From contig NZ_JACHWR010000003.1 in assembly GCF_014191495.1 (NCBI RefSeq), positions 186,501-250,500 of the forward strand: a stretch of 64,000 nt of DNA. Reading direction: 5' to 3'. Below are positions 37,139 to 61,167 of this stretch, in pieces. The stretch is from Nocardioides soli (GTDB taxonomy: Bacteria; Actinomycetota; Actinomycetes; Propionibacteriales; Nocardioidaceae). The translations under genes and the position numbers were made by a program. How positions within the stretch are numbered: the stretch's first letter is position 1; the number at the start of each line of letters is the position of its first letter. The notes beneath the pieces are model-generated. The model did no database searches and was not told the origin of the DNA. It saw nothing but the letters and a program-made list of their open reading frames with translations.

Positions 37139-37926
37139 GGAACCCGATGGCGACGCGAAGCACCCGGGCGCTCGCCAGGGCGTACCTGATCGCGGTGCTC
37201 GCCTTCCTGTTCGCGCCCCTGGTCGTCGTGGTGCTGTTCTCGTTCCACTCCGTGCCGCGGATGAGCCTGCCCTTCGAGGGGTTCTCGCTGCGGTGGTACG
37301 ACGAGGTCCTGCACGATCCGGTCGTGATCGACGCGATGATGCGGTCGGCGACCGCGGCGGTGCTCACCGGTCTGCTCAGCGGAATCCTCGGACTGAGCAT
37401 CGCCCTGGCGTTGGTCGGGGCGCGCCAGCGTGTCCGTGCCGCGACGATGGTGGCGGCGCTGATCCCGCTCACCTTCCCCAGCCTGCTCTACGCGATCGGT
37501 CTGGCGATCTGCTACCACTACTTCGACGTGGGCTACTCGCTGAAGGCGACGATCGGTGGTCACGTGATCATCGCCCTGCCGTTCGTCTTCATCGTGCTGA
37601 GCGCCAGCCTGGACCGGTTCCGGTTCTCGCTGCTCGAGGCCGCGTTCGACCTCGGGGCGAGCCCGTGGCTGGCGTTTCGCAAGATCACCCTGCCACTGAT
37701 CCTCCCCGCGGTGATCGGCGCGACCGTGCTGGCCATGGCGCTGTCCACCGACGAGTTCGTGGTCGCGTTCTTCACCGCCGGGCAGGAGAAGACCCTGCCC
37801 CTGTTGCTCTACGCCCGTATCAACCAAGGGTTGGATCCCAGCCTGAACGCGATCGGCACCATCCTGCTCGTGGCAACGACGGGGTTGGCGTGGCTGAGCG
37901 CCGTCCGAACCGCCAAGGAGAGCTGA
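37135..37926 (+). CDS. PotC-like ABC permease
   Basis: A 263-residue permease with six helices; the EAA loop is LLEAAFDLGASPWLAFRKITLPLILP. AGGAGG lies nine bases upstream of ATG 37135, supporting this start over the in-frame ATG at 37126. The last base of its stop is the first base of the ATPase start (37926), so the importer genes are tightly coupled. Confidence 0.9.
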   Translation: MRNPMATRSTRALARAYLIAVLAFLFAPLVVVVLFSFHSVPRMSLPFEGFSLRWYDEVLHDPVVIDAMMRSATAAVLTGLLSGILGLSIALALVGARQRVRAATMVAALIPLTFPSLLYAIGLAICYHYFDVGYSLKATIGGHVIIALPFVFIVLSASLDRFRFSLLEAAFDLGASPWLAFRKITLPLILPAVIGATVLAMALSTDEFVVAFFTAGQEKTLPLLLYARINQGLDPSLNAIGTILLVATTGLAWLSAVRTAKES

Positions 37927-41065: not shown

Positions 41066-42736
41066 GTGACAGCGCATCCTCCGGCGGCCGGCACCGAAGG
41101 GACGGTGGCCGCCGACCTCGCCGATCTCCTCGTGACCGAGGGGATCGACCGGGTGTTCACGGTCCCGGGTGAGAGCTTCCTGCCGCTGCTCGACGCCCTG
41201 CACGAACGGGGAGTCCAGGTCGTCACCTGCCGGCACGAGAACGGTGCTGCGTTCATGGCCCAGGCCGCCGGTCGGCTGACCGGACGTCCCGGTGTCTGCC
41301 TGGTCTCCCGGGCGCCCGGCGCGACCAACGCCGCGATCGGCGTTCATGAGGCGGAGCAGGCCGGCACGCCGATGCTGATGATCGTTGGCCAGGCGAGCAC
41401 TGGGCTGCTGGGACGCCACGCCTTCCAGGAGGTCGACCTGGTGCGCGTGTTCGCCCCGATGGCGAAGGCTGCGTACCAGCCCGTGGCGGCGGGAGAGGTG
41501 GCCGGTGCCGCGCGGGATGCGTGGCGCGCCGCCGTCTCCGGTCGCCCGGGCCCGGCGGTGCTCGCCGTACCCACCGACCTGCTGCGCGCCTCCACCGGCG
41601 TCCGGACCGCCACGGTCGCGTCCGGCGATTCACCACGTGCCGGCCGGGCCGAGGCCGTGGCCGAGCTGGTGGCGGGTGCGCATCGTCCGATGGTGATCGT
41701 CGGAGGTGGGCGATGGTCGGCCGAGGCCGCGGCCGATCTCCGCCGCTGGGCCGAGGCCTGGAGCCTCCCGATCGCGGTGGAGTTCCGCTGCCAGGACTAC
41801 CTCGACAACCGCTCGACGTCGTACGTCGGCGATCTCGGCCTGGCGCCGAGCCCGGCGCTCGCCAGACGGATCGCCGATGCCGACGTCTGCGTCGTGATCG
41901 GCGGCGAGCTCGGCGACATCGCGACCCAGGGCTTCTCCCTGTTCGCCCGCCGGCAGCCGGAGAGCTTGCTCCAGGTCGTCGACGACCCGAGCCGGGTGCG
42001 CGGTCGCCACCCGGGACGGGTGCGCGAGGGCGGCGGCCCCGAGACGGTCCGCGCGCTGGCGCAGCTGCCGGCCCCGCCCGGAGCGTCGGCCTGGCAGGGC
42101 CGGACCGGCACGGCGCGCGAGGAGTGGGTGGAATGGACCTCCGCGCACGAGAGCGGAGACGAGCTCGCGGTGGCCGTGCGTGGCATGTCGGAGCTGGCGA
42201 GCGAGCACACGGTGGTGAGCGTCGGCGCGGGCAACTACACGGGATGGGTGCAGCGGCACTGGACGTTCCGCCAGTACGGCACCCAGCTCGCGCCACGCAG
42301 TGGCTCGATGGGATACGGCCTGCCATCGGCCGTCGCCGCCGCTCTGGGTGGCGCCCAGGGGCCGGTCGTGTCCTTCGGCGGGGATGGCTGCTTCCTGATG
42401 ACGGCCCAGGAGCTGGCCACCGCAGCGCGTTACGGCGCCGGCGTGGTGGCCGTCGTCGTCAACAACGGCATGTACGGCACGATCCGCATGCACCAGGAGG
42501 CCGCCTACCCCGGTCGCGTGGCGGGCACGATGCTGACCAATCCCGACTTCATGGAGCTGGGGCGGGCCTACGACTGCTGGACACATCGTGCGCACCGAGC
42601 GGAGGAGGTGCTGGAGGCCTTCGCCGACTGCATGGCCCACCCGGAGCGGCGCTCGCTCATCGAGATCGTGACGGCACCGGATCGCATCACTCCTACGCGG
42701 TCCCTGCTGCGGGGTGGTGGCCTGAGCCCGGCGTGA
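41066..42736 (+). CDS. Thiamine-diphosphate enzyme of the acetolactate-synthase group
   Basis: A 556-residue ThDP enzyme. The catalytic Glu is in CRHENGAAFMAQAAGRLTG and the ThDP-binding motif is SFGGDGCFLMTAQELATAARYGAGVVAVVVNNGMYG. The central domain (VIVGGGRWSAEAAADLRRWAEAW) has the FAD/nucleotide-like fold of the group. It could be a 2-oxo-acid decarboxylase, a carboligase or a C-C hydrolase of the IolD kind; the sequence alone does not decide. GTG 41066 has AAGGGA upstream. It is the last gene of the operon, and its end borders a truncated repair gene. Confidence 0.88.
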   Translation: MTAHPPAAGTEGTVAADLADLLVTEGIDRVFTVPGESFLPLLDALHERGVQVVTCRHENGAAFMAQAAGRLTGRPGVCLVSRAPGATNAAIGVHEAEQAGTPMLMIVGQASTGLLGRHAFQEVDLVRVFAPMAKAAYQPVAAGEVAGAARDAWRAAVSGRPGPAVLAVPTDLLRASTGVRTATVASGDSPRAGRAEAVAELVAGAHRPMVIVGGGRWSAEAAADLRRWAEAWSLPIAVEFRCQDYLDNRSTSYVGDLGLAPSPALARRIADADVCVVIGGELGDIATQGFSLFARRQPESLLQVVDDPSRVRGRHPGRVREGGGPETVRALAQLPAPPGASAWQGRTGTAREEWVEWTSAHESGDELAVAVRGMSELASEHTVVSVGAGNYTGWVQRHWTFRQYGTQLAPRSGSMGYGLPSAVAAALGGAQGPVVSFGGDGCFLMTAQELATAARYGAGVVAVVVNNGMYGTIRMHQEAAYPGRVAGTMLTNPDFMELGRAYDCWTHRAHRAEEVLEAFADCMAHPERRSLIEIVTAPDRITPTRSLLRGGGLSPA

Positions 42737-42739
42737 CCG

Positions 42740-42832
42740 GCCAGGTGCGTCCTTGCCGCCCCAGGTTCCTGGCTTGGGGGAGTCGTAGGGCAGCCGATCG
42801 GCTCCGAGCAGGGTGAAGCGCTTCTCGGGCAT
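42740..42832 (-). pseudogene. 5' remnant of a small Ada-type metal-binding protein gene
   Basis: From ATG 42832, preceded by AGGAG, the minus strand reads MPEKRFTLLGADRLPYDSPK and then PGTWGGK. This is the conserved N-terminus of the small actinobacterial proteins that carry the Ada zinc-binding domain and sit beside ogt-type genes. After about 27 codons the similarity stops and the four-Cys part is missing, at the 3' end of the oppositely directed ThDP gene. The rest of the frame is a shadow of that gene. It is therefore a truncated remnant, left where the catabolic cluster joins the older locus. Confidence 0.65.
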
Positions 42833-42870
42833 GGTGGTTCTCCTGGTGCGGCCGTGAGGCGGAGCCTGAA

Positions 42871-43590
42871 TCAGGCGGCGTCGTGGAAGACGAGGGCGAG
42901 CGTGTGCCGCTCGCCGCTGCGGATCGCCGACACGCCGTGACGCACCGGAGCCGCGGACCAGCCGCGTGCCGACGGGACCGGACGGTCGCGGGTGGTGAAC
43001 ACGTAGCCGTGCCCCTGGGGGAGGAGCGTCGAGGTGCCGCGGGACTGGGCACGGGGCCGTTGCTCGACGAGCAGGAACTCGCCGCCGGTGTGGTCGACGC
43101 CTGGCTCGTTGAGGTTGATGACGACCTGGAGCGGGAAGACGAGGTCGCCATAGAGGTCGCGGTGCAGGGCGTTCCAGTCGCCTTCGCGGTAGCGCAGCAG
43201 GATCGAGGTCGACTTGGTCTGCCCGACCGCGTGGCACCGGTCGAGCCACTCGTCGAGGCTGTCCGGCCAGGGCGCCTGCCGACCCAGGCGGGTCCACCAG
43301 TCGCGGGCGACGGGCAGCAGGCGCGGGTAGAGGGCCTGCTTGAGCCGCTCGATCGGCTCCGGGTACGGCGCGCGGAAGTACTTGTACTCCCCGGAGCCGA
43401 AGCGGTGCCGAGCCATGTCGATCCGGCTGCGGAAGAGCTTGTCGCGCTGGTACAGGTCGCGGATCTCCGCCGTCTCGTCGACACTGAGGAGCTGGGGCAG
43501 CAGCGCGCCGCCGTACTGGTCGAGGTCGCTGGTGACCTGGGCCCAGTCGGCTCCGGCGACGCGCTGCTCCCACGATGCGATCGTGCTCAT
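42871..43590 (-). CDS. 2OG-Fe(II) oxygenase of a DNA-alkylation-repair locus
   Basis: A 239-residue protein starting MSTIASWEQRVAGADWAQV. The iron ligands are His-x-Asp in WNALHRDLYGDLVFP and a C-terminal His in APVRHGVSAI, followed by RSGERHTLALVFHD with the 2-oxoglutarate-binding Arg. It belongs to a prolyl-hydroxylase-like group commonly found with ogt and Ada-type genes rather than to AlkB proper; a role in alkylation repair is inferred from that context. Its start overlaps the stop of the broken ogt gene (ATGA). Confidence 0.85.
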   Translation of the reverse strand: MSTIASWEQRVAGADWAQVTSDLDQYGGALLPQLLSVDETAEIRDLYQRDKLFRSRIDMARHRFGSGEYKYFRAPYPEPIERLKQALYPRLLPVARDWWTRLGRQAPWPDSLDEWLDRCHAVGQTKSTSILLRYREGDWNALHRDLYGDLVFPLQVVINLNEPGVDHTGGEFLLVEQRPRAQSRGTSTLLPQGHGYVFTTRDRPVPSARGWSAAPVRHGVSAIRSGERHTLALVFHDAA

Positions 43591-44192
43591 GCGGCCTCCA
43601 GGTGCAGGAGGGTGGACTTGGCCTCGGCGCCGCCGATGTAGCCGCCGAGGCTGCCGTCGGCGCGCAGGACCCGGTGGCAGGGGACCACGACCGGGAGGGG
43701 GTTGGTGGCGCATGCCGTACCGACGGCGCGGACGGCCTTGGGGTTGCCGACGAGCATCGCGACCTCGCCGTAGCTGCGGGTCTGTCCATAGCCGATCGCG
43801 GGGAGATGCCGCTGGACCAGCTGCCGGAAGCCGTGGGACAGCGACAGGTCGAGGTCGAAGGTCGAAGGTGCGACGGTCGCCGGCGAAGTACTCCGCGAGC
43901 TCCCGCGCCACGCGATCGAGCCGGGCCGGTGCCCGCAGGATGCGGGCGGACAGCTTGCGGCCGAGCTCCTCGAGGACCAGATCGTGGTCCTCGCGGGCGA
44001 AGGCCACGCGGACCAGGCCCTTGTCGGTGGCGGCGAGCAGCAGCGGCCCGACGGGACTGTCGACGACGGTGTAGGCGACGTCGAGGATGCCCTCGGCGGC
44101 GGCCTGCGTGACCAATCGGTCGTGGAGGCGGGCCAGGGTCGTGGGCGAGATGAGGGCGGTCAGGCCGCCAACGGCTCTGGCGGCGGTCGTGA
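43587..44192 (-). pseudogene. ogt: Methylated-DNA-protein cysteine methyltransferase gene, frameshifted
   Basis: Two minus-strand frames together give a complete O6-alkylguanine-DNA methyltransferase. The N-terminal part LDVAYTVVDSPVGPLLLAAT to EYFAGDRRTFDL is in one frame; the C-terminal part, from FDLDLSLSHGFRQL through SYGEVAMLVGNPKAVRAVG to the active-site PCHRV and GGYIGG, is in another. They meet at 43853-43866, where GGTCGAA is present twice in tandem; removing one copy restores a single frame. The 5' end is unclear: the only in-frame start near the conserved region is TTG at about 44192, with no ribosome site. The repair protein is probably not made. Confidence 0.82.
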
Positions 44193-44385
44193 CCTGCAAA
44201 CGGGGGTGGGCCCGGTCGTGATCGGGCCCCGGTCGAAGGTGTCGAGAGGTGGTGCGGCCAGTGGGAGGGCGGCGGGAGCCACCCGGGGATGAGGGCGAAA
44301 CGAGATCTGAGCCATTCGCCCGCGGATGCCGTGCGACGGAAACTAGTGTGCGTGCCCAGCGGTCATACGACTCTTGGGGGAGAAG

Positions 44386-45111
44386 ATGCTGCGCAAGCTC
44401 ACCGCTTCCAGCGTGTGCATGGCGGTCGCCGCATTCGCAGGTCTGAGCATGCCCGCGTTGAGCCCCGCCTCTGGGATCGCGCCCGACGGAAGGATTCACG
44501 TCGACCGGCGCGGCGTTCTCTACGAGGGCTGCAACGACGTCGACTACTCCTGGAGCATCAACCTGCCCTATGGCGCCGCGTCCTGGTCGATGACCGTGAC
44601 CCTCGAAGGCCCGGACGGCACAGAGGTCGACTCGGACTACGAGTATGACAACCACGGCGGCTACGGAAGCGGCTCGTTTCAGATCTGCGACTGGGAGGAG
44701 CCCGGCCGCTACTACATCGACGTGGACGCCTCGTATCTCGATGAAGACTACGACGAGCGCTTTCTGTGGGTAGACGCACCGAGCTTCTCCATGAAGCGGC
44801 CCAAGAGCCGAACCCAGATCTCAGTCCACCCGACTCGCAATCTGCACCGCGGACAACTCGTCACCATGAAGGTCACCAGTCGGGGTCAAAAGCCCTACGG
44901 CTACTTCCGACTGCCCTACGTCAACGTCGTCATTCAGGTCCGGCACGGCAGCGGAGCGTGGCGCAACATCAGGTGGACGAAGAGCATCACCGGTCGCAAC
45001 GGCACCGCGACCATACGCGGCAAGTACACCGGTCGCGTCGCCGTTCGAGCGCGCACGGTCGGCGGGGGCGCGTACAAGTCGTCGAACTCCCGCGTGATTC
45101 ACCTGCGCTGA
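44386..45111 (+). CDS. Secreted protein of unknown function
   Basis: A 241-residue protein with a signal peptide (MLRKLTASSVCMAVAAFAGL) probably cleaved near PAS. The mature part has two apparent beta-sandwich segments: a first one rich in Tyr/Asp (residues 35-125, with a Cys pair near 50 and 95) and a basic second one (TQISVHPTRNLHRGQLVTMK onward) resembling Ig-like domains of secreted actinobacterial proteins. GGGGGAG lies directly before ATG 44386. No enzyme motif is seen. Confidence 0.75.
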   Translation: MLRKLTASSVCMAVAAFAGLSMPALSPASGIAPDGRIHVDRRGVLYEGCNDVDYSWSINLPYGAASWSMTVTLEGPDGTEVDSDYEYDNHGGYGSGSFQICDWEEPGRYYIDVDASYLDEDYDERFLWVDAPSFSMKRPKSRTQISVHPTRNLHRGQLVTMKVTSRGQKPYGYFRLPYVNVVIQVRHGSGAWRNIRWTKSITGRNGTATIRGKYTGRVAVRARTVGGGAYKSSNSRVIHLR

Positions 45112-45202
45112 CTCCGAACCATGACCGCGGCCAGTGGCGGGCGCTGTGCCACTCATCGCATGGAGAGGGTCGGTGTCGCGTTCCGTGTGTGCACGTGAGA
45201 AC

Positions 45203-46114
45203 TCAAGGACACAGGCGCGCTGTCGCCCAGGGGGAGTCGGGATCGGCGCGCAACGCCTCCTCGTCGAACCCCAGATCGCTGATCGCACGGAGGCTCGGTG
45301 CGGAGCGGACCAGGTGCGCCAGGTGCACCACCCGCATGTCGCGCGTCTCGTGGTCGACCGCGCCGCAGTGGATGGTCCAGTCCTCGCCGCGCTCCTCGTC
45401 CGACTGACGCGCTGCCCACAGGACGGCCTCGCCGTCGTCGACGACGTGGCTGCAGGAGAACGCCCGGTGGTCCGGCGGCACGGGGAAGGTCCACTCCGGG
45501 TCCGGCGCGAGTCCGCCGGTGTGGTCGATGGGGACCCGCCACTCGCGAGGCTGCAGTTCGTCGAGCATCTCGTCCGCCCCCGGCTGCCACGCGAACACGC
45601 CGCTGTGGTCCGGCCACACGATCGCCAGGGCGTCCTGCGGGCGGCGATGGAACCACGCCGACCAGGTGACCGTCTCCTCGAGCGCGTCGTCATCGACCTG
45701 CTCGATCGCGACCGGCACGCCGGCCAGCACGTCCTCGAGAGCGTCGCCGGGGGCGAGGCGGCGGCCGTCGATGACCCGTTGGGCCACGTCGTTGAGGGCG
45801 CTGTGCAGCACGCGGTGGTCGAGTCCGGACATCAGCAGCTCCGGGTGACCGCAGCGATGCCCCAGGCCGACCGTGTACGCGAACGCAGGTCCTGGTTCGT
45901 CGTGGTCGTCGAACCAGGGGTCGTCGTGATCGGGGTGGCTGCAGTCAGCCTCCCCGCCGACCAGGATCACCTGCCATCCGTGCTCGAGGACCGTGTCGAT
46001 CGTGTGACGGTCCAGCTCGTCGTAGGCGTCGTCCGGCCGACAGATGTGGCAGTCGCACCCGCGCGCCGCGGGAAGCGGGCCCATCCACGGCGTGTCGTTC
46101 CCGGCTCGTGACAT
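45203..46114 (-). CDS. DUF4262-domain protein
   Basis: A 303-residue cytosolic protein. It starts with a Cys-rich segment, RGCDCHICRPDD, followed by IDTVLEHGWQVILVGG and the DUF4262 core AFAYTVGLGHRCGHPELLMSGL; the C-terminal third is a separate acidic domain. Its function is unknown. ATG 46114 has GAGGAGG upstream. The next gene (46231) is divergent. Confidence 0.8.
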   Translation of the reverse strand: MSRAGNDTPWMGPLPAARGCDCHICRPDDAYDELDRHTIDTVLEHGWQVILVGGEADCSHPDHDDPWFDDHDEPGPAFAYTVGLGHRCGHPELLMSGLDHRVLHSALNDVAQRVIDGRRLAPGDALEDVLAGVPVAIEQVDDDALEETVTWSAWFHRRPQDALAIVWPDHSGVFAWQPGADEMLDELQPREWRVPIDHTGGLAPDPEWTFPVPPDHRAFSCSHVVDDGEAVLWAARQSDEERGEDWTIHCGAVDHETRDMRVVHLAHLVRSAPSLRAISDLGFDEEALRADPDSPWATARLCP

Positions 46115-46230
46115 CGCACCTCCTCGTGTCGGAGTCGGTTGTACCGCGCCCGGAGGTGGTGGCGCTCGGCTATCCACAGGCCGCCTCCTGCGCATTGCGC
46201 AGCAGAGCGGCTGATCGCAGCCTTGTCGTC

Positions 46231-46764
46231 ATGGGCTACCAGACCGACTTCATCGGCTATCTGCAGATCGAGCCACCCCTCGGGCCGCGCGAGATCTCCT
46301 TCATCAACCGCATCTCCGGATCGCTGTTCCTCCACGAGTCCGAAGGCGGACTGCGGGTGGCCGACGAGGACGACGAGGTGCTCCGCGATCTCACCAAGCA
46401 TGCCCCGCGCGGGTGGTCCAACTGGGCCGTGTGTCCCCAAGGCTGCTGTCTCAGCTACGACGGCGGTGACAAGGCGAACCACATGGTGCCGTGGCTCACG
46501 TTCCTGATGGACACCTTCCTGGTGCCGGGCGCCGCAGCCGAGGGCATCGAGGGGATGACCTGTGACCACATCCTGACCGGCATGGTTGTCGGCTCTCGTC
46601 GCGACACCCGAGAGCTCTACTCGATCACCGCCCGAGACAACGACGTCGAGGTCGAGCTCATGTGGCCAGGCAATCCGCAGTGGAGCGACTACCCGCGGCT
46701 GGCGTATCAGACCAGGATCGATCGCTTCCGAGACTGGGTGGCCGACCGGAAGGCGCGCGGATAG
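46231..46764 (+). CDS. Hypothetical cytosolic protein
   Basis: A 177-residue protein, MGYQTDFIGYLQIEPPLGPRE at the start. The composition is balanced (Trp, Tyr, Phe and acidic residues spread evenly) and codon use is normal, so it looks genuine. Short motifs such as VCPQGCCLSYDGGDKANHM and DWVADRK are reminiscent of small conserved proteins of actinobacteria and phages, but no function can be assigned. A longer frame begins at 46108 and overlaps the divergent gene. Confidence 0.65.
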   Translation: MGYQTDFIGYLQIEPPLGPREISFINRISGSLFLHESEGGLRVADEDDEVLRDLTKHAPRGWSNWAVCPQGCCLSYDGGDKANHMVPWLTFLMDTFLVPGAAAEGIEGMTCDHILTGMVVGSRRDTRELYSITARDNDVEVELMWPGNPQWSDYPRLAYQTRIDRFRDWVADRKARG

Positions 46765-47370
46765 GGAGAGCGCCGCAGGGTTTGGGACCCTCGGCCCTCG
46801 TCGCGACGATCGAGCCCGGTTCCGACCACCCGTCAGCTCGCCCGGCCTACCAACGGCTCGGCCTTCGCGAGCGTGATGAGCGTCGTGCCGCGTCGTGCCG
46901 GGCGCAAGCGACCGGTGCCCAAGGACAGCTCAGCCATGTCACCGCCGCCGTTGTGTCGCATGCACGAGGCCCGCGGACTCCTAGCGAAACCGAGGCGATC
47001 CTCGGGGGCTCTCCCAACTCGGCCCGTCTTCCGCGTGCTAGTGGTCGTCGCTGGAAGTTCCTCGGGGGTGGCCCGTGCTCGGGGTGCGTGCATCGCAAGG
47101 CGCCGGAGCGCGGCTCTACTTGCTCGTCCAGCAAGCGACGGCAACGCCGCGAGGTGCGTGCCCGGGGTGCGGGCCAACCGAAGAACTTCCGGTGATGACC
47201 ACTAGTCGTTTGAAGGGCTACGGCCCTCCGCCGATCAAGAACGGGAAGCACTGCGGTGGATCCCTGCGTCAGTCATCACCTGGGTCAAGCAGCACGAGCG
47301 CGCGGCCGGCTGAGGAGTGCGGCTAGGCTCCGACGCGGGCGAGTACGGCCCGCTCGAGGCGACGAGCGTC
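46765..47370. other. 606-bp stretch without a recognisable gene
   Basis: Several overlapping frames are open on both strands, but all are Arg/Ser/Pro-rich and none has a good ribosome site or known motif. A plus-strand frame at 47075-47326 contains a single CPGC pair. The stretch may be decayed coding DNA at the left side of the accessory region; nothing firmer can be said. Confidence 0.5.
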
Positions 47371-47784
47371 TCAGGCGAGAAGGACTCGCGCCTTCACGAT
47401 CAGCGAAGCGCTGGCTCGCTCGGCCTTCTTCCGCGCATCGGCGTTGATCAAGGCCGTTGAGTAGTGGGCCGTGTCCTTCAGATCGAGGAGGGTGGTGAGG
47501 TGCTTGCTCGGCTTGTCGTCCGGGATCGCGCTGCGGAGGAAGCCGATGGCTCCCGCGTGGTCCTCGCCGCGCCATCGCTCGCCGACGGCGCCGGCCCCGA
47601 TCGCATCGGCGGCTGAGATCCCCGCGAGGACATAGAGCGAGACGGCGACCTTGGCGGCGTAGGTGTCATCGACGTCGGAGCCGACCAGTTCGCCGGCCTC
47701 ATGGCATTTGCGCGCGTAGTCGAGTCGCTGCCTGCCCTGTGCGCGATTGAACGCCTCGGTCCTGCCTCGGCTCGAGCGGCTCAT
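47371..47784 (-). CDS. HEPN-domain protein (SAV_6107-like)
   Basis: A 137-residue all-helical protein. The C-terminal part HLTTLLDLKDTAHYSTALI matches HEPN proteins of the SAV_6107 type that pair with nucleotidyltransferases. The strict R-x4-6-H RNase motif is not present (K-D-T-A-H instead). It overlaps the nucleotidyltransferase gene by four bases (ATGA at 47781-47784), so the two form one unit, most likely a toxin-antitoxin pair or a substrate-binding partner. Confidence 0.75.
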   Translation of the reverse strand: MSRSSRGRTEAFNRAQGRQRLDYARKCHEAGELVGSDVDDTYAAKVAVSLYVLAGISAADAIGAGAVGERWRGEDHAGAIGFLRSAIPDDKPSKHLTTLLDLKDTAHYSTALINADARKKAERASASLIVKARVLLA

Positions 47785-48377
47785 CCGACGCGCTCCGTTT
47801 TGTTCATGAGGTCGAGTCCGTCGCGGCGGATGCTGTCAACCAGCGGGTCGCCATCCTTGGTCATCCTTGTCCACGCCGACTCGCTGACGACGACGAGCTG
47901 CGCGTGGTTGCCGGTCCACCGGGCCACGGAAGACCGGAGCGCCTCGATGTCTGGGTCCGTTGGCGCGGAGTCATCTCGGTGGACGATCAGGATGTCGATG
48001 TCGGACGCGGCGTCGCCGTCGCCTCGGGCTGCGGAACCGAAGAGCGTGGTCTGCTTCGGCGGCTGCTCCCAGGTGCCCAGGAGGTCGCCGAGGCGCTGGA
48101 GCAGGGAGCTGCGGATGCCGACGAGGACCTCGACGGCCGGCCAAGCGAGGTGCTCGCGATTGGCCTCGTAGAGGATCGACGAGCCGGCGCGCTCAGCCGT
48201 GATGATGCCGGTCTCGGTGAGTCGATCGAGCACCGTCGCGACGCCGGGGATGCTGCCTCGGCGCGCAAGGCGCTGCACCTGTCGGCCGGTGATCGGCTTG
48301 CCGGCTCGGGCCAGGACCTCAAGCACAGCGCCGTCAAGCGACGGCACGACAGTCTCGTAGGGAGCGGACACATCCAC
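47781..48377 (-). CDS. Winged-helix/minimal nucleotidyltransferase fusion protein
   Basis: A 198-residue protein. Residues 1-75 form a winged helix (AVLEVLARAGKPITGRQVQRLA, VLDRLTETGIITAERAG). The second half is a minimal nucleotidyltransferase with FGSAARGDGDAASDIDILIV, the complete GS-x10-DxD motif. In MNT/HEPN systems the nucleotidyltransferase AMPylates and silences the HEPN toxin; the winged helix would allow the same protein to regulate its own promoter. The promoter region upstream is unusually AT-rich (TAAAAATAACAGACATGTG). Confidence 0.85.
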   Translation of the reverse strand: MDVSAPYETVVPSLDGAVLEVLARAGKPITGRQVQRLARRGSIPGVATVLDRLTETGIITAERAGSSILYEANREHLAWPAVEVLVGIRSSLLQRLGDLLGTWEQPPKQTTLFGSAARGDGDAASDIDILIVHRDDSAPTDPDIEALRSSVARWTGNHAQLVVVSESAWTRMTKDGDPLVDSIRRDGLDLMNKTERVG

Positions 48378-48441
48378 GTGCTAAAAATAACAGACATGTG
48401 TCTGAAATAGTTGTCGGCCAATCTGGCGTGCGCGTATCGAG

Positions 48442-48858
48442 ATGGGTTCGCTCACAGCGAGCACTCCCGTGGTGGTCCTCGGACAGGCGAAGTGCATTCT
48501 GCCGAGTTCGTCGGTATCACCGGAGCAAGTCGCGCGCGTGGTCGCGCGGCTGCGCCGGGACTGGCTCGGCGTCTATGTCACCACAGGATCCTTCTCGCGG
48601 CAGGCCCAGGTCGAGATCATCGACGACCAGTACCCGGTCGTCTTGATCTCCGGCGGCACGCTGGCAGCTGCGGTGCGGCAGATGGCGCAGGCCAACGACG
48701 GCGGCGATCTGGAAGCCCTCCTGGAGTCCACGATCGACGGACACGGCACGGTGGCCACGCATCGTCGACCCGAGGAAGTCCTCTCGATGCAGGTGTGTCG
48801 GGCACACCTCGCGCGTGGGCTGCACTGGGTACGCACAACAACGAAGAACGGCGCCTGA
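48442..48858 (+). pseudogene. C-terminal fragment of a restriction-endonuclease-like protein
   Basis: A 138-codon frame. TPVVVLGQAKC contains the Q-x-K half of a PD-(D/E)xK nuclease site, and RLRRDWLGVYVTTGSFSRQAQVEIIDDQYPVVLISGG resembles the end of Mrr-type restriction nucleases. The N-terminal specificity part and the first half of the catalytic domain are missing, and no methylase is nearby. It is most likely a remnant; translation from ATG 48442 cannot be excluded. Confidence 0.6.
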
Positions 48859-49256
48859 CGCTGGAAGACGTCGAAAGACGTTTTCGCAGGACAGGCGCCG
48901 TTTCAGGCACCCAGCCGCAGGTCAGCGAGACCCGGAATCAGATGTCGTAGTTCTGACCGCACCTGTACCCTGACCTGCGCAAACGTCGAATAGGCAGATA
49001 GGCAGGGGGTCGGGCCGCGATGGGGCCGCACGCGGCCAGTCGCCGCGCGCGGACGCCACTGGCCGTGTCGGCGGCCATGAAATTCTGCCCGGAGACGGCC
49101 ACGAAACTGCCCGCTGGCGGACATGAAACCTGCCCGGTGGCGGTCATGGGATCTGCCCGACACGACGTCGTCTGCCTCACCGGCTCCGACGGTTGAGGCC
49201 CCTCCTCAGGTGCGATCGGCGGTGCTGAAGCGCCCGTCGCCCTGAGGAGGGACAAC

Positions 49257-50801
49257 TTGAAGTCTGCCGAGGAGATCATGGAAATCCTGGATGCCTACGA
49301 CCTGACAGGGTCGTTGCGTGATGCCGGCGAGCTGGCCGGATGCTCGCACCACACGGTCAAGCACTACGTGGACCGCCGTGCTGCCGGGGGTGAGCTGGAC
49401 AAGGCCGTGACTCGGCCGCAGTTGATCGATGAGTACCTGCCCAAGGTCGAGGAGTGGGTCGAGCGGTCCAAGGGCAAGGTCCGTGCCGACAGAGCGCACG
49501 AGAAGCTGCTCGCGATGGGCTACAAGGGTTCGGAGCGCACCACCCGTCGTGCGGTCGCATCGGTGAAGAAGTCATACCGGTCAGGACATGTGCGGGTCCA
49601 CCGGCCCTGGGTCACCGAGCCGGGGATGTGGCTGCAGTACGACTACGGCGACGGACCTGTCGTCGACGGCGTCAAGACGGTTCTGTTCGTGGCGTGGCTG
49701 GCGTGGTCGCGGTTCCGGGTCGTGATCGCGCTGCGCGATAAGACCATGCCGTCCGTGTTCGCCGCGCTGGACCAGACCTTCCGCCGGTTGGGTGGGGTGC
49801 CGACCTACGTGCTGACCGACAACGAGAAGACCGTCACGACCGAGCACATCGCCGGGATCCCGGTCCGCAACGGACAGCTCGTCACCTTCGCCGAGCACTA
49901 CTCGGTCGTGGTCCACACCTGTGTGCCGGCGGATCCGGCGTCCAAGGGCGGCACCGAGTCGTCGGTGAAGATCAGCAAGGCCGACCTGGTGCCCAAGGAC
50001 ACCAACCTGCGTGAGGAGTACGCGTCGTTTAGCGAGCTCGAGGAGGCGTGTGAGGCGTTCTGTCAGAAGGTCAACACCCGGGCTCACCGGACCACGAAGC
50101 GGCCACCGGTCGAGATGTTGGCCGAAGAGCGGACACGGCTACACCCGGTCCCGACACAGCCGCACACAGTCGCGTTCGGCACCACCCGGGTAGTGCCGGG
50201 CAACACGCCGATGGTGATGTTCGAGTCCGGCCAGTACTCGGTGCCACACACCCTGCTCGGCGCCACGGTGTGGGTTCGTGCCCAAGGACTCGGCGACGGC
50301 GAGGAGGTCGTCATCGTTCACGTCGGCGAGGACGGACCCGCCGAGGTCGCCCGCCACGCGCGCGCGACGCCGGGCACGCCGAGGATCAACGACGAGCACT
50401 TCCCACCGCAGCCGGAAGGTCCGTTGAACCGGCAGCCGCGAGCGAAGAACCCAGCGGAAGCCGAGTTCCTCGACCTGGGCGAGGGCGCCCGCCTGTGGCT
50501 GGTCGAGGCCGCTGCGGCGGGCACGCCGCGGATGAGGGTCAAGATGGCCGAAGCCCTCAGCCTGGCCAAGCTGTTCGACCCCGTCGAGGTCGACTGGGCA
50601 CTCGGCCACGCCGCCGTCCACGGCCGGTTCGCCGAGGCCGATCTGTCCTCGATCCTCGACCACCACGCCCGGCAACCCGCTGTTGGCGAGCACCGTGCCG
50701 GCGAAGAACGGTCGCTGACCCAGGGCACCGCCGGATGGGCACGTCTCGGCCAGCACGACAGCCAGCACGACAGCCGCGAGGGGAACGAGGTGACCCGATG
50801 A
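49257..50801 (+). CDS. istA: IS21-family transposase IstA
   Basis: A 514-residue transposase. An N-terminal helix-turn-helix (GSLRDAGELAGCSHHTVKHYV) precedes the DDE core: Asp in LQYDYGDGPVV, Asp in YVLTDNEKTV and Glu in KGGTESSVK. The start is TTG 49257 with GAGGAGGG seven bases upstream. Its stop overlaps the istB start (ATGA at 50798). Confidence 0.95.
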   Translation: MKSAEEIMEILDAYDLTGSLRDAGELAGCSHHTVKHYVDRRAAGGELDKAVTRPQLIDEYLPKVEEWVERSKGKVRADRAHEKLLAMGYKGSERTTRRAVASVKKSYRSGHVRVHRPWVTEPGMWLQYDYGDGPVVDGVKTVLFVAWLAWSRFRVVIALRDKTMPSVFAALDQTFRRLGGVPTYVLTDNEKTVTTEHIAGIPVRNGQLVTFAEHYSVVVHTCVPADPASKGGTESSVKISKADLVPKDTNLREEYASFSELEEACEAFCQKVNTRAHRTTKRPPVEMLAEERTRLHPVPTQPHTVAFGTTRVVPGNTPMVMFESGQYSVPHTLLGATVWVRAQGLGDGEEVVIVHVGEDGPAEVARHARATPGTPRINDEHFPPQPEGPLNRQPRAKNPAEAEFLDLGEGARLWLVEAAAAGTPRMRVKMAEALSLAKLFDPVEVDWALGHAAVHGRFAEADLSSILDHHARQPAVGEHRAGEERSLTQGTAGWARLGQHDSQHDSREGNEVTR

Positions 50802-51592
50802 CGACCAAGACCACCACACCATCGATGGCGTCCGCGCCGCCGTTGCCGGCCGAGTTGGAGGACCTCTTGCGGCGGCTTCGGCTGCCCCACATCCGTCGCC
50901 ACGCACCGGAGGTCGTCGCGACCGCGAAGGCCCAACGCTGGGAGCCCGCCGAGGTGCTCAAGGCTCTGTTCGCCGAGGAGGTCGCCGGAAGGGAACGCTC
51001 CGCACTGGCCACCCGCAGGGCGGCTGCGGGGTTCCCGACCGGGAAGACGTTCGATGCGTGGCAGCCCGAGGCATCCTCGATCCCGGCACCGACCCAGCAG
51101 GCACTCCGCACCCTGGAATGGGTCCACCGTCGGGAAAACCTCGTCGTGTGCGGGCCGTCGGGGACCGGGAAGACGTTCCTACTGGAGGCACTCGGTCACC
51201 AAGCCGTCGAGGCCGGGTTGAAGGTCGCCTGGTTCACCCTGGAAGACCTCGGGGTCCTGCTGCGCCGCCATCGTGCCGACGACACGGTGTCCAAGGCCAT
51301 CGCCCGTGTGCTGCGCGCCGATCTCGTTGTCGTCGACGACATCGGCCTGTTGCCGGTCGCCCAGGATGCCGCCGAGGGGCTCTACCGGCTCGTCGACGCC
51401 GCCTACGAGAAGCGGTCGGTCGCGATCAGCTCGAACCTGCACCCGTCCGGGTTCGACGAGCTGATGCCCAAGACGCTGGCGACCGCCACCGTCGACCGGC
51501 TACTGCACCACGCCCACGTGTGCCAGACCAGCGGAGACTCCGTGCGACTTACCCAGGCACTCGCCGGCCGAGGGGTGAGTCCCTTGAGCTGA
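50798..51592 (+). CDS. istB: IS21-family AAA+ helper ATPase IstB
   Basis: A 264-residue DnaC-like ATPase. Walker A is VVCGPSGTGKTFLLEAL, Walker B is DLVVVDDIGLLPV and the sensor region is VAISSNLHPSGFDELM. IstB assembles IstA at the target and sets its site choice. ATG 50798 is translationally coupled to istA. Confidence 0.95.
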   Translation: MTTKTTTPSMASAPPLPAELEDLLRRLRLPHIRRHAPEVVATAKAQRWEPAEVLKALFAEEVAGRERSALATRRAAAGFPTGKTFDAWQPEASSIPAPTQQALRTLEWVHRRENLVVCGPSGTGKTFLLEALGHQAVEAGLKVAWFTLEDLGVLLRRHRADDTVSKAIARVLRADLVVVDDIGLLPVAQDAAEGLYRLVDAAYEKRSVAISSNLHPSGFDELMPKTLATATVDRLLHHAHVCQTSGDSVRLTQALAGRGVSPLS

Positions 51593-51724
51593 GTGCTCTG
51601 GTCGGTGGTGGCCGCAAGCCCACTGGGCAGATCCCATGGCCACCACCGGGCAGTTCTCGTGACCGTCAGCGGGCAGGTCTCACGACCGCCCCTGGGCAGT
51701 TCCTACTGTCCCTTGACATGGCCG

Positions 51725-52088
51725 ACCTCGGTGGACCCGGAATGAGGCATCGCACTGATCGCGGTGAGGCTCGGGTGCTCTATCGGGCGGTGCGCAGCGT
51801 GGACCAAGTCAACGATCGGGTCTGCTGCACGATCGGGTGACAGGTCAAGGTGTCACCCATCCGTGCAGCAAACCCTCAGGCAAGAGTGGAGGCGGCGGTG
51901 GCCCGCGAGCTGGCACGCCGGTATGGCGTGTGACCTCCGCCCGGCGTCGGTGTACGCGTGTTTGAACGCCATGGGATGGTGCGCCGACTGGACTGATCGC
52001 CGAGGTTGGTGCCGGGCGTAGGGTTGAGGTGAGTGACCGGCGATAAGGCCTCCGCCCGGAGGTCGGTGTCGGTCGAGAGGCGGACGTC
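51725..52088. other. 364-bp non-coding stretch with a large inverted repeat
   Basis: No convincing gene. It contains two 20-bp arms, 51823-51842 and 51851-51870, that pair at 17 of 20 positions around an 8-base loop, starting TGCTGCACG and ending CGTGCAGCA. The left arm recurs as a direct repeat at 60899-60918. Confidence 0.6.
51823..51870. repeat. Inverted repeat; left arm repeated at 60899
   Basis: The left arm contains GCTGCACGATCGGGTGACAG (51824-51843). The right arm is its imperfect inverse. The same 20-mer with one change (C for G at position 12) occurs in the same direction at 60899-60918, right behind the last accessory gene. The repeat may be a recombination or element-end sequence. 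Confidence 0.7.
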
Positions 52089-52631
52089 ATGACGACGTCG
52101 AAGGGGCTCATGCATCCCTCCGAAATCGCCCCCGTGGGTCGCGGCCCGCTGCGGCTCAACATGGCCGAGCATCCCGGCAAGAATCGTCTCGATGGCGCGT
52201 GGTGGCCCCAGAGCCGCGACTTGGCGGTGGAGCTGGCCGACCTGGTCGACCACATCCCCCCGCGGTTCGGCCGGGTCGCGCGCGTGCTGTTCTCCCCGCC
52301 CGACTGGGATCCCGGGCCGCGCCGTGTTCCGGTCGCCGGCGGCTACGTGAAGGTCGGCTCGTTTCCTCGCGACGACAGCCACCTGATCGACCTCACGATG
52401 TCGGACCGGACCGTGCTCCACGTCCTGGTCGTGCCAACCGGCTTCACCGCGGGCCAGGGCGAGGAGGCACTGTTGGCTGCTGCGACCTCCGGAAACGCGC
52501 ACTCGGCAAACGACCTCCTCGCAGAGGTCGTGGACTCGCCTGATGTCGACCCCACGGGTCACTGGACCGACGACGGTGGGTCCTGGTGGAGACGGAGCCC
52601 GATGCCACCGTCGTTCCGGACAGGCAGCTGA
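52089..52631 (+). CDS. DUF5994-family protein (copy 1)
   Basis: A 180-residue protein. DUF5994 signatures are RLDGAWWPQSRDLAVELADLVDHIP, VLFSPPDWDPGPRRV and GYVKVGSFPRDDSHLIDLTM. The function is unknown. A second member lies at 54230 on the opposite strand. The 21 bases around both starts (52079-52099 here) are identical and include the palindrome CGTCATGACG over the ATG, so the two genes may share control. Confidence 0.85.
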   Translation: MTTSKGLMHPSEIAPVGRGPLRLNMAEHPGKNRLDGAWWPQSRDLAVELADLVDHIPPRFGRVARVLFSPPDWDPGPRRVPVAGGYVKVGSFPRDDSHLIDLTMSDRTVLHVLVVPTGFTAGQGEEALLAAATSGNAHSANDLLAEVVDSPDVDPTGHWTDDGGSWWRRSPMPPSFRTGS

Positions 52632-52633
52632 CA

Positions 52634-52882
52634 GTGGCGTACTTGATGCTCTACGGCAACGGGTGGACGCAGCGCTGGGGGATCGTTCCGGGTATGGAGG
52701 AGCAGGTCCGTTCCCAGATCGTCCAAGTCGGAACGGACGCCACGGGGGAGCTCACCGTGGTCGATCCTGGGTCCGAGGCCGAAGCCACCCTTGTGGTCGC
52801 GTGGGCACTTGTGGCGGCCGCCGTGGTGCTCGACGGCTCCGGCCGGGCCGCAGCCGGCGACTCCACGGGGCAGTACGCCTGA
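52634..52882 (+). CDS. Small hypothetical protein
   Basis: About 82 residues from GTG 52634 (MAYLMLYGNGWTQRWGIVPG), or 98 from GTG 52586, which would overlap DUF5994 copy 1. The C-terminal part is hydrophobic (TLVVAWALVAAAVVLDG). No ribosome site is obvious and no family is recognised. It is kept because its composition differs from the shadow frames around it. Confidence 0.45.
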   Translation: MAYLMLYGNGWTQRWGIVPGMEEQVRSQIVQVGTDATGELTVVDPGSEAEATLVVAWALVAAAVVLDGSGRAAAGDSTGQYA

Positions 52883-52920
52883 CACCGACTCCGATCGAGG
52901 CGAACAAGGAGGCACCGACG

Positions 52921-53241
52921 ATGAAGTTCGTCATCGAGGCGAATCTGGCGAGCAAGCCAGCATGGTGGCTGCTCGATGACGACGATCGAGTCGTCGCCTG
53001 GGCTGGGCGGACCTTCGTCAGCCTCGCCCACGCCGACCAGGCAGCCCATGACTTCCGAGTGAATGCCGATGATCCCGACTACCGGATCCACACCAAGTCC
53101 GGTGGCAGTTGGCGGTGGACTGCCTGGCGGTCGGAGGGCGTCCGGGTGGCTGTCTCTGGTGACTGGTTCCCCGACAAGGCCGCCGCTCGCGACGCGGCCC
53201 GGCGAGTTCAGCAGCAAGCGTGCACCGCTATCGGGCCGTGA
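52921..53241 (+). CDS. YegP-like (DUF1508) protein
   Basis: A 106-residue protein: MKFVIEANLASKPAWWLLDD, then VVAWAGRTFVSLAHADQAAHDF and YRIHTKSGGSWRWTAWRSEG. The alternation of a short beta hairpin and a helix with W-rich turns matches the YegP/DUF1508 fold. The function is unknown. AAGGAGG stands nine bases before ATG 52921. The next small gene overlaps its end. Confidence 0.78.
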   Translation: MKFVIEANLASKPAWWLLDDDDRVVAWAGRTFVSLAHADQAAHDFRVNADDPDYRIHTKSGGSWRWTAWRSEGVRVAVSGDWFPDKAAARDAARRVQQQACTAIGP

Positions 53242-53468
53242 CCGTGTCGGGCCTGGTGCTTCGCGTCCGGCTGGTCAGCGGTGACAGTACCGACGTCACC
53301 TACGAAGACCCCGACGCGGGAAGCGACGCCGAGTTGATCGACCACGTCGTAGCCAGGCTCTCGAACGACTCCGGCGTACTGCGCTGCAGACACGGCGACC
53401 GGCTCGTGGTGTTGTATGCCAGGGGCGTCGCAGCTGTGGAAGTCGCACCTCGGGGCGCTGTCCTCTGA
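53220..53468 (+). CDS. Small hypothetical protein overlapping the YegP-like gene
   Basis: An 82-residue protein from GTG 53220, MHRYRAVTVSGLVLRVRLVS. It is probably beta-rich (TVSGLVLRVRLVSGDSTDVTYED, LVVLYARGVAAVEVAP). The 22-base overlap with the previous gene suggests translational coupling. No family is recognised. Confidence 0.5.
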   Translation: MHRYRAVTVSGLVLRVRLVSGDSTDVTYEDPDAGSDAELIDHVVARLSNDSGVLRCRHGDRLVVLYARGVAAVEVAPRGAVL

Positions 53469-53537
53469 CGGATGGAGCCGTGGTCGGCACTTCGAGGTCA
53501 CATCTGATGAGCCTGGCTCATCTCGTGGGCCCGGATT

Positions 53538-53794
53538 CTAGGTCAGCGGAGTCCCCGAGACGGTCGCCACCAGGTTTGCGATGATCTGCTCGCCGGCTTG
53601 CGGGTCGCGAACGAGCGGCCGCTGGATGGCGGCGCGAATCTGGGTGGTCTCCAGGATGAGAGCACGACCCTCGGGCATCGACTCGAAGAGACCGCCTCCG
53701 AGAGCCGGGCGAGCCTGGGATCGTTCGTCGTCATGGCGCCCGCGATCTGCGCGGCGTCGAGGAGCGCCACGCCAGCACTGGCACTGAGGGACAT
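53538..53794 (-). pseudogene. Small gene split by a frameshift
   Basis: From ATG 53794, preceded by GGAGGA, the frame reads MSLSASAGVALLDAAQIAGA to ARLSEAVS. Near 53685-53692 the protein-like sequence continues in another frame as FESMPEGRALILETTQIRAA and ends at 53538 after VATVSGTPLT. Joined, the two give a plausible protein of about 85 residues. The first frame downstream of the switch is W/R/P-rich noise. A one-base change is the simplest cause. No family is recognised. Confidence 0.5.
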
Positions 53795-53865
53795 GTTGTT
53801 CCTCCGCTCATCGTTGGCATCTCGTGCTGAACATCGCGCGACACGGCGCCGGCCGAGTCAGTGCC

Positions 53866-54123
53866 TCAGGGCGCGCCCCTCAGCCGGCGGTAGACCACGA
53901 TCTCGGTTCTGATCCGACGAGGTATGGGCGCGCCCAGGTCAGTGATGGCGGAGGCGTACTGCTCCAACGCGTCGAGCAGGTCTTCACGTGCGGCCGCCTT
54001 GTCGATCTCTCGTGCCGCTCCTCGTCGACCGCGTAGTCTCGCTCGCGCGACCCCGACCGTTTGAAGGCATGTCACAAGCCGGTCGTGCTCCAGCGGCCCG
54101 GGGCGACGCCTCGGTAGGGGCAT
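53866..54123 (-). CDS. Small helical hypothetical protein
   Basis: An 85-residue protein, MPLPRRRPGPLEHDRLVTCL, basic and largely helical (REIDKAAAREDLLDALEQYASAITDLG). AGGAG lies upstream of ATG 54123, which is preferred over the longer reading to 54324. The function is unknown. Confidence 0.6.
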   Translation of the reverse strand: MPLPRRRPGPLEHDRLVTCLQTVGVARARLRGRRGAAREIDKAAAREDLLDALEQYASAITDLGAPIPRRIRTEIVVYRRLRGAP

Positions 54124-54229
54124 CTGGGACTCCTGACGTTGACCGCAGTCGAAGCCTGACCGTATGAGCGCCGGGGCTCCGACGCCCGGGCCGGCGGCCT
54201 CCGGCGTGCGGCGGCGGCCGAACGAGAGG

Positions 54230-54697
54230 CTAGTGACCCGGACTCTCATGATGCGCGCGCGCCCAGTCAGGGTCCGTACCGCCATGGGCGCTGTGCGTCG
54301 CGACGGCGCGCATTCGTCGCTCACCCTCGGCCTGATCGGTGTCGCTAGGCACCACCACGAGGCGAAGGCGGCGACCGTTCGCCATGGACAGAACCATCAG
54401 ATGCGTGTCGTCCCTGGGGAACGAGCCCACCTTCACTGGCCCCCGACCTGCCTGAATTCGACGAAGTCCCTGACCGTTCGTGGCCCCGTCGTCCCAGTCG
54501 GGGCGGGAGAAGAGCAGTCGGTTGATCCGACCGACCGAGGCCGGGAACTGGTCGACCAGCTGAGCGGCTTCGGTCGCCAGGACGCGGGACCGTGGCCACC
54601 ATGCGCCGTCGAGATGGTCTGGGGTCTCCTGGAGCGCCAGACGCAGCGGCGCTGCTGCCAGGGGGGATTCGCCAGGTGTGTTCGGAGACGTCGTCAT
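54230..54697 (-). CDS. DUF5994-family protein (copy 2)
   Basis: A 155-residue protein with the same signatures as copy 1: HLDGAWWPRSRVLATEAAQLV, LLFSRPDWDDG and GPVKVGSFPRDDTHLMVLSM. It is about 25 residues shorter at the C-terminus. The start region (54687-54707) is identical over 21 bases to that of copy 1 although the coding parts have diverged, which points to retained regulation. Confidence 0.83.
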   Translation of the reverse strand: MTTSPNTPGESPLAAAPLRLALQETPDHLDGAWWPRSRVLATEAAQLVDQFPASVGRINRLLFSRPDWDDGATNGQGLRRIQAGRGPVKVGSFPRDDTHLMVLSMANGRRLRLVVVPSDTDQAEGERRMRAVATHSAHGGTDPDWARAHHESPGH

Positions 54698-54816
54698 GAC
54701 GTCCGCCCTTCAGTCCTGCCCCGCAGTTCGACGAACTGGCTCGACAGGTCGGTTGCTCTCGACACTACTCGGACGTGCCAACTCGCACCTCGCGATATCC
54801 GCCGTGACCGGCCGGG

Positions 54817-55309
54817 GTGTACCGGTCCTTGTCGCGCGTCGGTCAACGCGTCGTCGCGGTCATCGATGTCGACACCGCGTACCGTCGCGGCGAGGCGTGG
54901 TCTTGGCCTGTGCAGTTGCAGTCGCGTGCAAGGCGGCATCGCTACAAGAGTTCCTCGCGGTCGTCCGCAAGACGATGCACGGCCTACCGTCGGTTGACCG
55001 GGCCGAACGGCTCAAACTGGTCGGTTTGTACCGTCGAGGACATGGTGACCGCGCTGCGGTCAGCGCCCGACTTGCGAGCCTGAGTCGGCAGGAACGGGCC
55101 GTCCTGGGCCACCTCATGGCTGGGCACGTGGTCAGCGAGATCGCCGTCTTGCGCGTCGTCTCCGAACTGACGGTTCGTACCCAGGTCAAGGCGGTGCTGT
55201 ACAAGCTGGATGTCGCGAGCCAGATCAAGGCGTCGCCCTTGCCTGGGACAACAACGTCGCGCCGAGCGCAGAGACTCCCTATCGCCAGGCTGTGCCTCGT
55301 TCCGAGTAA
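54817..55309 (+). pseudogene. LuxR-type regulator remnant with two frameshifts
   Basis: Three frames together look like one regulator. The start RVVAVIDVDTAYRRGEAWS resembles a receiver-like N-terminus; after a shift near 54900 the frame CKAASLQEFLAVVRKTMHGL leads into a LuxR helix-turn-helix (ASLSRQERAVLGHLMAGHVV, SELTVRTQVKAVLYKLDVAS). At 55231 a one-base loss moves the natural ending QIKA-VALAWDNNVAPS to another frame that stops at 55309. Such a protein normally has a longer N-terminal domain. It is very probably inactive. Confidence 0.65.
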
Positions 55310-55517
55310 ACCGCTTTGCCTTCAACGGGACCGGGCACTCCGGATCTCTCCGAAGTGCCCGTCAACCCGTCGTAGCGACGAGACGCACGAAGCGTGGCGT
55401 ACACGAATCGCGATCCGGCCTACGGGCCGAGGCGATGAAACGACCCTTCCCCCGTATCGGGCAATGCCACCACGTGTACGGAACTGTCCTCCGGATAGCG
55501 CTCCACGTCAATAGGCG
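55310..55517. other. Non-coding stretch between two decayed genes
   Basis: No gene seen; the stretch separates the LuxR remnant from the possible shifted tail of the sigma-like gene on the other strand. The base composition is slightly less GC-rich than the backbone. Confidence 0.4.
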
Positions 55518-55623
55518 TCAACCGACGTCCGAGTCTGGCCCGCGCACGGCCCTCGCCTGGTTGCCATGTTCCGGTTCTGGGCGGTCACGCCGCAGCCAAG
55601 CGTTCGCAGCAGAGTCCTCAGGG

Positions 55624-56214
55624 TCAAGCCCAAAGTACGTCGCCGACGCGGTGATCGGCGCTCTCGCCAAGCACGCGCAATCCAGTTTGAGCTGTACTAC
55701 CCCCGTTGCCCCACCAATGTCTGTAGATGTTGGCGAACCGGATGATGCACTGGCCAACGAAGTAGGTACGGAGTGTTGCCCCGCGGGTGCTGTCCCACTT
55801 GCGCTTCAAGAGCACGTCGCGCCGAAAGTGGTACAACGCCTTTGCCACCGTCTCGCTCGTCAGTTCCGTGATCTCATCCGGTTCAAACGGACGCCCGAGT
55901 TCAGGCAGGCCGAAGCCCTTGGCACGACACTTGTGGTGGATGAGGCCCTTATGCATCCACCCGCCGATCACAGCCATGCCGTACTTAGCCAGTTCGGTCG
56001 CGAAGACATCCCAGCGGTCGCCCTCGTAGTTGCTGAGTGCCAGAAGCATGACGACCTCGACGTCGCCGGCCAGGCGGTCGACCTTGTCCGCAAGCCCAGC
56101 GTGCTCAGGCTCGCTGAGCCAGTCCTCCGGGATCGCCGCTTCACCCGGCTGCAGTTGTACGGGCTCGCCTGAGGCGCCGGGGCCACCCGGCGGTCGCTTC
56201 GGCTCGAAGGCCAT
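55624..56214 (-). CDS. Sigma-region-2-like conserved protein, tail possibly frameshifted
   Basis: A 196-residue protein. The centre TSETVAKALYHFRRDVLLKRKWDSTRGATLRTYFVGQCIIRF resembles the sigma-70 region 2 fold of a widespread actinobacterial group that is found as accessory regulators. GAGGAGA precedes ATG 56214. The frame ends early (RVGDVLWA), whereas another frame continues with FGLDPEDSAANAWLRRDRPE down to 55518, so a frameshift near 55640 is likely and the C-terminal region-4-like part may be lost. Confidence 0.6.
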   Translation of the reverse strand: MAFEPKRPPGGPGASGEPVQLQPGEAAIPEDWLSEPEHAGLADKVDRLAGDVEVVMLLALSNYEGDRWDVFATELAKYGMAVIGGWMHKGLIHHKCRAKGFGLPELGRPFEPDEITELTSETVAKALYHFRRDVLLKRKWDSTRGATLRTYFVGQCIIRFANIYRHWWGNGGSTAQTGLRVLGESADHRVGDVLWA

Positions 56215-56584
56215 AGCGTCTCCTCAGTTCGGCGACGTCGGCGAGCAAGCTCGTCGATGTCCCCTCATAAGTGCCGCCCAGCGTGCCACCCCCCAACCTT
56301 CCGGAATCTTTTTCTGGGAAGCAGCCGACAGCCGAATCAGTGTCGCAACAACCACCGACATAGCGAGGCGTCGCGCCTCCGAAATCCGCTGGATTGGCAG
56401 CCGCAACTCAGGGACGGCCAGCCCGCGGTCCTCGGGGATCTCCACAGGTCAGGTCCGCGCCGGCAACGCGGTCCAGCCCTCGACCGCCGGTGCCGCGAGG
56501 TGTTCTGCGGGGATGTCTGCGGCATGCCCCCACAGCGACAGGCCGGGCCTGCCGTGTTTGACGGACAACTTCGCCTAAGCGAAT
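56215..56584. other. 370-bp intergenic stretch
   Basis: No firm gene. A minus-strand frame at 56224-56445 (GTG start, 73 residues, RLPIQRISEARRLAMSVVVA) has a reasonable composition but no ribosome site and no known motif. The right end, just before the gene at 56585, is AT-rich (GCGAATATGTATGTC) and probably holds its promoter. Confidence 0.4.
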
Positions 56585-60040: not shown

Positions 60041-60041
60041 T

Positions 60042-60892: not shown

Positions 60893-60898
60893 GGATTC

Positions 60899-61131: not shown

Positions 61132-61167
61132 GTTGATCGAATACGAGTAATTCGATCAGTTTACGAC

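Follow-up and report, generated by a model that had tools for sequence, protein, structure and literature searches.

The window, that is, the whole stretch of 64,000 nucleotides analysed here (contig C3:186501-250500 of a 5.8 Mb genome in 22 contigs), contains a place where a catabolic operon abuts a block of alkylation-repair genes (Table 1). The operon closes with a gene for a ThDP-dependent enzyme. Convergent with it, on the minus strand, runs the repair block, consisting of ogt, a 2OG-Fe(II) oxygenase gene, whose stop codon TGA lies at 42873-42871, and the beginning of a small gene of the Ada metal-binding type, here called ada'. The latter starts with an ATG (42832-42830, minus strand) behind an intact ribosome site and encodes MPEKRFTLLGADRLPYDSPKPGTWGG (42832-42755), after which the residues are unrelated. 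Homology to ada ends at 42755, and 18 bases lead from there to the stop codon of the ThDP gene (42734-42736).

Table 1. Features of the window on both sides of the joint.
Feature	Position	Strand	Remarks
Accessory catabolic/transport region	22623-42736		MFS, GntR, TauE, HAD, RraA, GFO/IDH, MR/MLE, ALDH, IclR, creatininase-like, M20, ABC transporter, PTE, 2-hydroxyacid dehydrogenase, ThDP
ThDP-dependent enzyme	41066-42736	+	TPP_enzyme N/M/C; NF006052 thiamine pyrophosphate protein; closes the operon; GTG taken as start
Joint, 18 bases	42737-42754		No alignment to ada by eye; outside the ThDP coding sequence
ada'	42755-42832	-	Opening 26 codons of a gene for a small Ada metal-binding-domain protein; break precedes the Zn-binding domain
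Oxygenase stop to ada' ATG, 38 bases	42870-42833	-	AGGAG ribosome-binding-like site upstream of the ATG
Oxygenase-NA 2OG-Fe(II) oxygenase	42871-43590	-	PF09859, intact; E 9e-79, 263 bits, cut-off 26
ogt (O6-methylguanine-DNA methyltransferase)	43587-44136	-	Two frames (tblastn); directly upstream of the oxygenase, its stop overlapping the oxygenase start
Far edge of repair block	44137-44373		Sigma-factor gene missing where homologous cassettes have one
Second accessory region	44374-61167		IS21-type element, transposase piece, RES and DUF genes
Nucleotidyltransferase-domain protein	47781-48377	-	PADLOC candidate matches PDC-M05A, PDC-S09
IS21-type element, 2.66 kb	49063-51718		rve + Mu-transpos_C_2; 100% second copy at C1:1759348-1762003; 82-85% copies in several congeners
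DDE transposase piece	58289-58747	+	Within the second accessory region
RES-domain protein	59146-59877	-	

The assignment of ada' relies on an HMM built from 15 full small-Ada proteins encoded directly downstream of an oxygenase, which were first located by pattern. The fragment scores 23.6 bits over positions 4-30 of the 96 in the model, with an E-value of 7e-9 in a search of three frames and of 9.5e-4 when every ORF of the window and of the compared loci is searched, while in a codon-shuffled control 19 of 3,000 copies gave any match, with a maximum of 6.4 bits. These scores bear out the preliminary description, which had recognized, close to the ThDP stop, a truncated small Ada gene with intact ribosome site and start and a missing domain; the short N-terminal piece, put there at about 27 codons, measures 26. 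Searched by itself, the 26-residue fragment has no match to a family in Pfam (up to E 10) or in NCBIfam (up to E 0.01). The full homologue from Amycolatopsis jejuensis matches Ada_Zn_binding (PF02805) from residue 22 onward, with all its cysteines beyond that point, so that the zinc-binding cysteines belong to the part beyond the break. Except for the 26 pre-domain codons, a small Ada zinc-binding protein (PF02805) is thus absent downstream of the window oxygenase.

The reading frame of ada' remains open for 400 codons in all, running antisense to the ThDP gene until a stop at about 41632. With its intact ribosome site and ATG, such a frame could be taken for a functional new gene, expressed either as a short peptide or by read-through. 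This is highly improbable, because beyond codon 26 the frame is the antisense of the conserved ThDP gene, and long antisense frames are common in GC-rich DNA. Congeners would not be expected to conserve the joint, since their ThDP matches at E<=1e-100 reach at most 42% identity; the search for the joint DNA was confined to the genome's own sequence.

The oxygenase shows dN/dS values of 0.21-0.29 between the window and the four congeners that carry it, compared with 0.07-0.24 among the four. The gene is therefore under constraint, perhaps a little less so than the congeners' copies, and may still be working. The ogt gene is interrupted by a frameshift, one extra base near 43858-43862 (minus strand) rather than a 7-base duplication. 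Between the window and the four congeners, the dN/dS of ogt is 0.07-0.11 for the 3' part and 0.29-0.51 for the 5' part; for the 5' part the values among the four congeners and A. jejuensis are 0.20-0.43. It follows that ogt was constrained until recently or that the frameshift is an error of the sequence; the gene is either a pseudogene or carries a sequence error at 43858-43862. Most likely, ogt and ada' are non-functional.

The repair block is incomplete also at its far end. The alignment of ogt starts at 44136, corresponding to residue 19 of the Pimelobacter simplex protein, and this 5' edge aligns weakly. The nearest in-frame TTG is at 44199 and the nearest GTG at 44499; a TTG start is possible, and the position of the 5' breakpoint is uncertain. 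No match to an ECF-like sigma gene was obtained upstream of ogt, the sole match in the window (E 6e-6) being to a different sigma gene, at 22.0-22.5 kb.

On the operon side the C-terminus of the ThDP protein has a natural length, with 13 residues past (D/E)RI(S/T)P against 12 in a 44% identical homologue, which indicates that this side of the joint is undamaged. Matches to the ThDP protein were found in three of 215 genomes of the genus at E<=1e-100, including its own, the others being 41-42% identical; at the level of the order (391 genomes, E<=1e-115) only the own genome was retrieved, and at the level of the phylum (396 genomes, E<=1e-120) the own genome and one other, 44% identical. Three to six candidates were scored per genome in these searches. 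Plasmids yielded 198 records at E<=1e-80, all less than 60% identical.

The DNA of the catabolic cluster (22.6-42.5 kb) is matched in 162 of the 215 genus genomes at E<=1e-60, with at most two candidates scored per genome. The matches listed are paralogues of the ABC ATPase (70-74%) and five short pieces located elsewhere, the longest of 1.5 kb at 72%; none of the matches listed for the 215 genomes represents an orthologous block of the cluster. ARAGORN reports a tRNA-Ser(CGA) inside an ABC permease gene (37601-37676, plus strand), perhaps a false positive.

The oxygenase is present in five of the 215 genus genomes (E<=1e-20), one of them its own. The other four fall into two pairs with two different neighbourhoods (pieces >300 bits), and all that they have in common with the window is the DNA from 42871 to 44103-44137, at about 82% identity (blastn pieces >150 bits, 80 kb each). 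Within the 80 kb around the oxygenase no ada was found in these congeners at E<=0.01. Downstream of the oxygenase they have, one each, a gene that we take to be tag, an apparent remnant that is presumably also of tag, a tRNA-Ser gene, and something else. In the oxygenase tree the window sequence groups as sister to the four congeners' sequences (94/60), and A. jejuensis, which has the full cassette, comes next (98/89). The first of these supports is not strong. Given this grouping, the cassette may have been inherited within the genus.

The P. simplex locus, with its sigma, ogt and oxygenase genes, has 12 matches in the genome under study, of which nine are collinear on contig C2, two are on C8 and one is the window cassette. 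The interval between the neighbouring DNA and tRNA-Ser(GCT) measures 2.63 kb in P. simplex, where it holds the cassette, and 0.55 kb on C2, where it does not. The site used in P. simplex is therefore empty on C2, and the window copy does not occupy the P. simplex place.

Beyond the repair block, the second accessory region contains among others the RES-domain protein, a family that we assume to be one of toxins. In a search of the genus with 44.1-64 kb, with one or two candidates scored per genome, some match occurs in 212 of 215 genomes; for 44.1-61.1 kb the matches listed comprise copies of one IS only. Genus-conserved DNA resumes from about 61.1 kb, with the glutamine synthetase gene (61168-62685) and beyond. 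In the best-matching genome (G203) the DNA left of glutamine synthetase is collinear neither with the window nor with the 20 kb to the left of it, and consequently the region of 22.6-61.2 kb as a whole has no empty site to compare with.

The preliminary description regarded the joint as the result of recombination. That part holds: the joint exists and an Ada-type gene is truncated there. It further suggested that the catabolic cluster had come into an alkylation-repair locus; on this reading the repair locus was there first and the incoming cluster truncated ada. Relevant to it is a sample of named loci (the best 80 of 236 relatives), in which ada was sought by the HMM up to 700 bases downstream of the oxygenase; in 31 of these 80, among which are all 15 seeds of the HMM, the oxygenase is directly followed by a full small-Ada gene. 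As the preliminary description had proposed, the cluster is absent beside these genes: 14 validly framed cluster proteins, a query set without PTE and the ABC ATPase, gave no match at E<=1e-20 in the flanks of the 31 loci (up to 10 kb per side), nor within the 80 kb that surround the oxygenase in the four congeners. The genomes of the 31 loci contain four matches to the ThDP protein at E<=1e-60, 35-45% identical. This absence, together with the lack of an orthologous block among the genus matches described above, is what insertion would predict, and the ada fragment is still so well preserved that the cut may be recent. Absence of the cluster beside the repair genes gives, however, no direction, because the repair block is no less accessory than the cluster. 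Moreover, the block has lost its far end too and does not lie at the tRNA-Ser site of P. simplex.

Simple insertion would also leave the remainder of ada beyond the cluster, and it was found neither in the window nor in the genome. In the window the N-terminal fragment alone matches the HMM at E<=0.01. In the whole genome the next matches have E-values of 0.06, 0.48 and 1.35. The first of these, C1:398234-398368 (locus L113, 1504-1635, in genome G000), covers the zinc-binding part and was rejected as the lost half, as it lies within a 503-codon open frame that reads as an Ada-type protein of its own, whose regulator and glycosylase-like parts were named by eye. Insertion of the cluster into a resident repair locus is thus not supported and is considered unlikely.

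An artificial origin of the joint, as an assembly chimera at 42.75 kb, would agree with the frameshift in ogt, which could likewise be a sequence error. It is nevertheless very unlikely, considering that the contig is 874 kb long and belongs to a 22-contig assembly that is 99% complete, that third-position GC is similar on both sides (0.88 in the ThDP gene and 0.94 in the oxygenase gene), and that the missing far end of the repair block would require a second chimera.

Within 42500-43000 there is no direct repeat at the joint, and within 124 kb no repeat match to it exceeds 13 bases. No recombinase gene was found at the joint among the subset of ORFs scanned, in which the nearest transposase is about 6.5 kb away. 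Three imperfect inverted repeats are located near the joint, one arm of which (42756-42771) is right beside the break; in DNA of 73% GC they may well be due to chance. Joining without homology, such as end joining (Ku/LigD), would be the simplest reading. NHEJ in actinobacteria is the subject of PMC3102665 and PMC5124664.

The joint is probably a recombination scar between two accessory segments, namely the end of the catabolic operon and ogt'-2OG-ada', the 1.4 kb that is left of a roaming sigma-ogt-2OG-ada cassette. On one side would stand the 3' end of the operon, closing with the intact ThDP gene, and on the other the cassette remnant, with one break close to the ogt start and the other within ada. 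The two would have been joined without homology, for example by Ku/LigD, and the rest of ada would have gone in one event, when the DNA between two acquired segments was deleted or when a fragment of the cassette was captured. Directly observed are the truncated ada, the missing cassette ends on both sides, the patchy occurrence of the cassette, the cassette-free site elsewhere in the genome and the canonical order of the four genes. No intermediate state turned up in any genome, and either segment may have arrived first. The direction of the original argument is thereby corrected: with accessory DNA on either side of the joint, the truncated gene is not the mark of a host locus that the operon had invaded. 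A single scar of this kind is an ordinary outcome of gene shuffling in a bacterium; the unit worth study is the four-gene alkylation-repair cassette.

The canonical order of this cassette is seen best where ada is complete. In the 31 loci with a full ada, both sigma and ogt precede the oxygenase in 26, ogt only in one and neither in four. The remaining 49 loci (one, L038, with an internally deleted ada, and 48 without ada downstream, of which L066 has a full ada upstream) have sigma and ogt in 11 cases, ogt only in six and neither in 32. At the A. jejuensis locus (L016, about 9789-10001) the ogt 3' part and the oxygenase start are duplicated in tandem, the copies having diverged. The complete sigma-ogt-2OG-Ada order, as annotated, is present on a plasmid of Rhodococcus antarcticus, and a Streptomyces plasmid carries the oxygenase together with an Ada gene; the cassette can therefore travel. 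The oxygenase is matched on plasmids in 88 records at 1e-30, six of which are 60-80% identical; a pattern search of viral contigs gave no match.

In the portion of the literature seen under the family and domain names, alkylation in P. simplex and most alkylation and sigma topics, apparently no paper is about the sigma-ogt-2OG-ada cassette. It is conceivable, though on present data rather doubtful, that it constitutes a little-described travelling alkylation-repair operon of actinomycetes. Such an operon would be borne by plasmids and left behind at various places on chromosomes, in one case next to a tRNA gene; its last gene would turn over (ada, tag or nothing), and remnants would mark its passage, with the oxygenase alone kept in the window.

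Among the described relatives, the sigma-ogt-2OG locus of P. simplex ATCC 6946 (NZ_FOUK01000001.1) is about 82% identical to the window in the DNA of ogt and the oxygenase. Unlike the window locus, it lies beside a tRNA-Ser gene, retains the sigma gene and has no ada match downstream. A broken small Ada gene directly after the oxygenase, as in the window, occurs in Planotetraspora thailandica NBRC 104271 (L038). There, however, the lesion (about 10714-10845) is an internal deletion and both ends of the gene are kept, unlike in ada'. The cassettes of the R. antarcticus plasmid (NZ_CP110616.1) and of A. jejuensis (NZ_JNYZ01000051.1) share with the window the same-strand order of ogt and oxygenase and the start of ada directly after the oxygenase; compared with them, the window lacks the sigma gene, has a frameshifted ogt and retains only 26 codons of ada.
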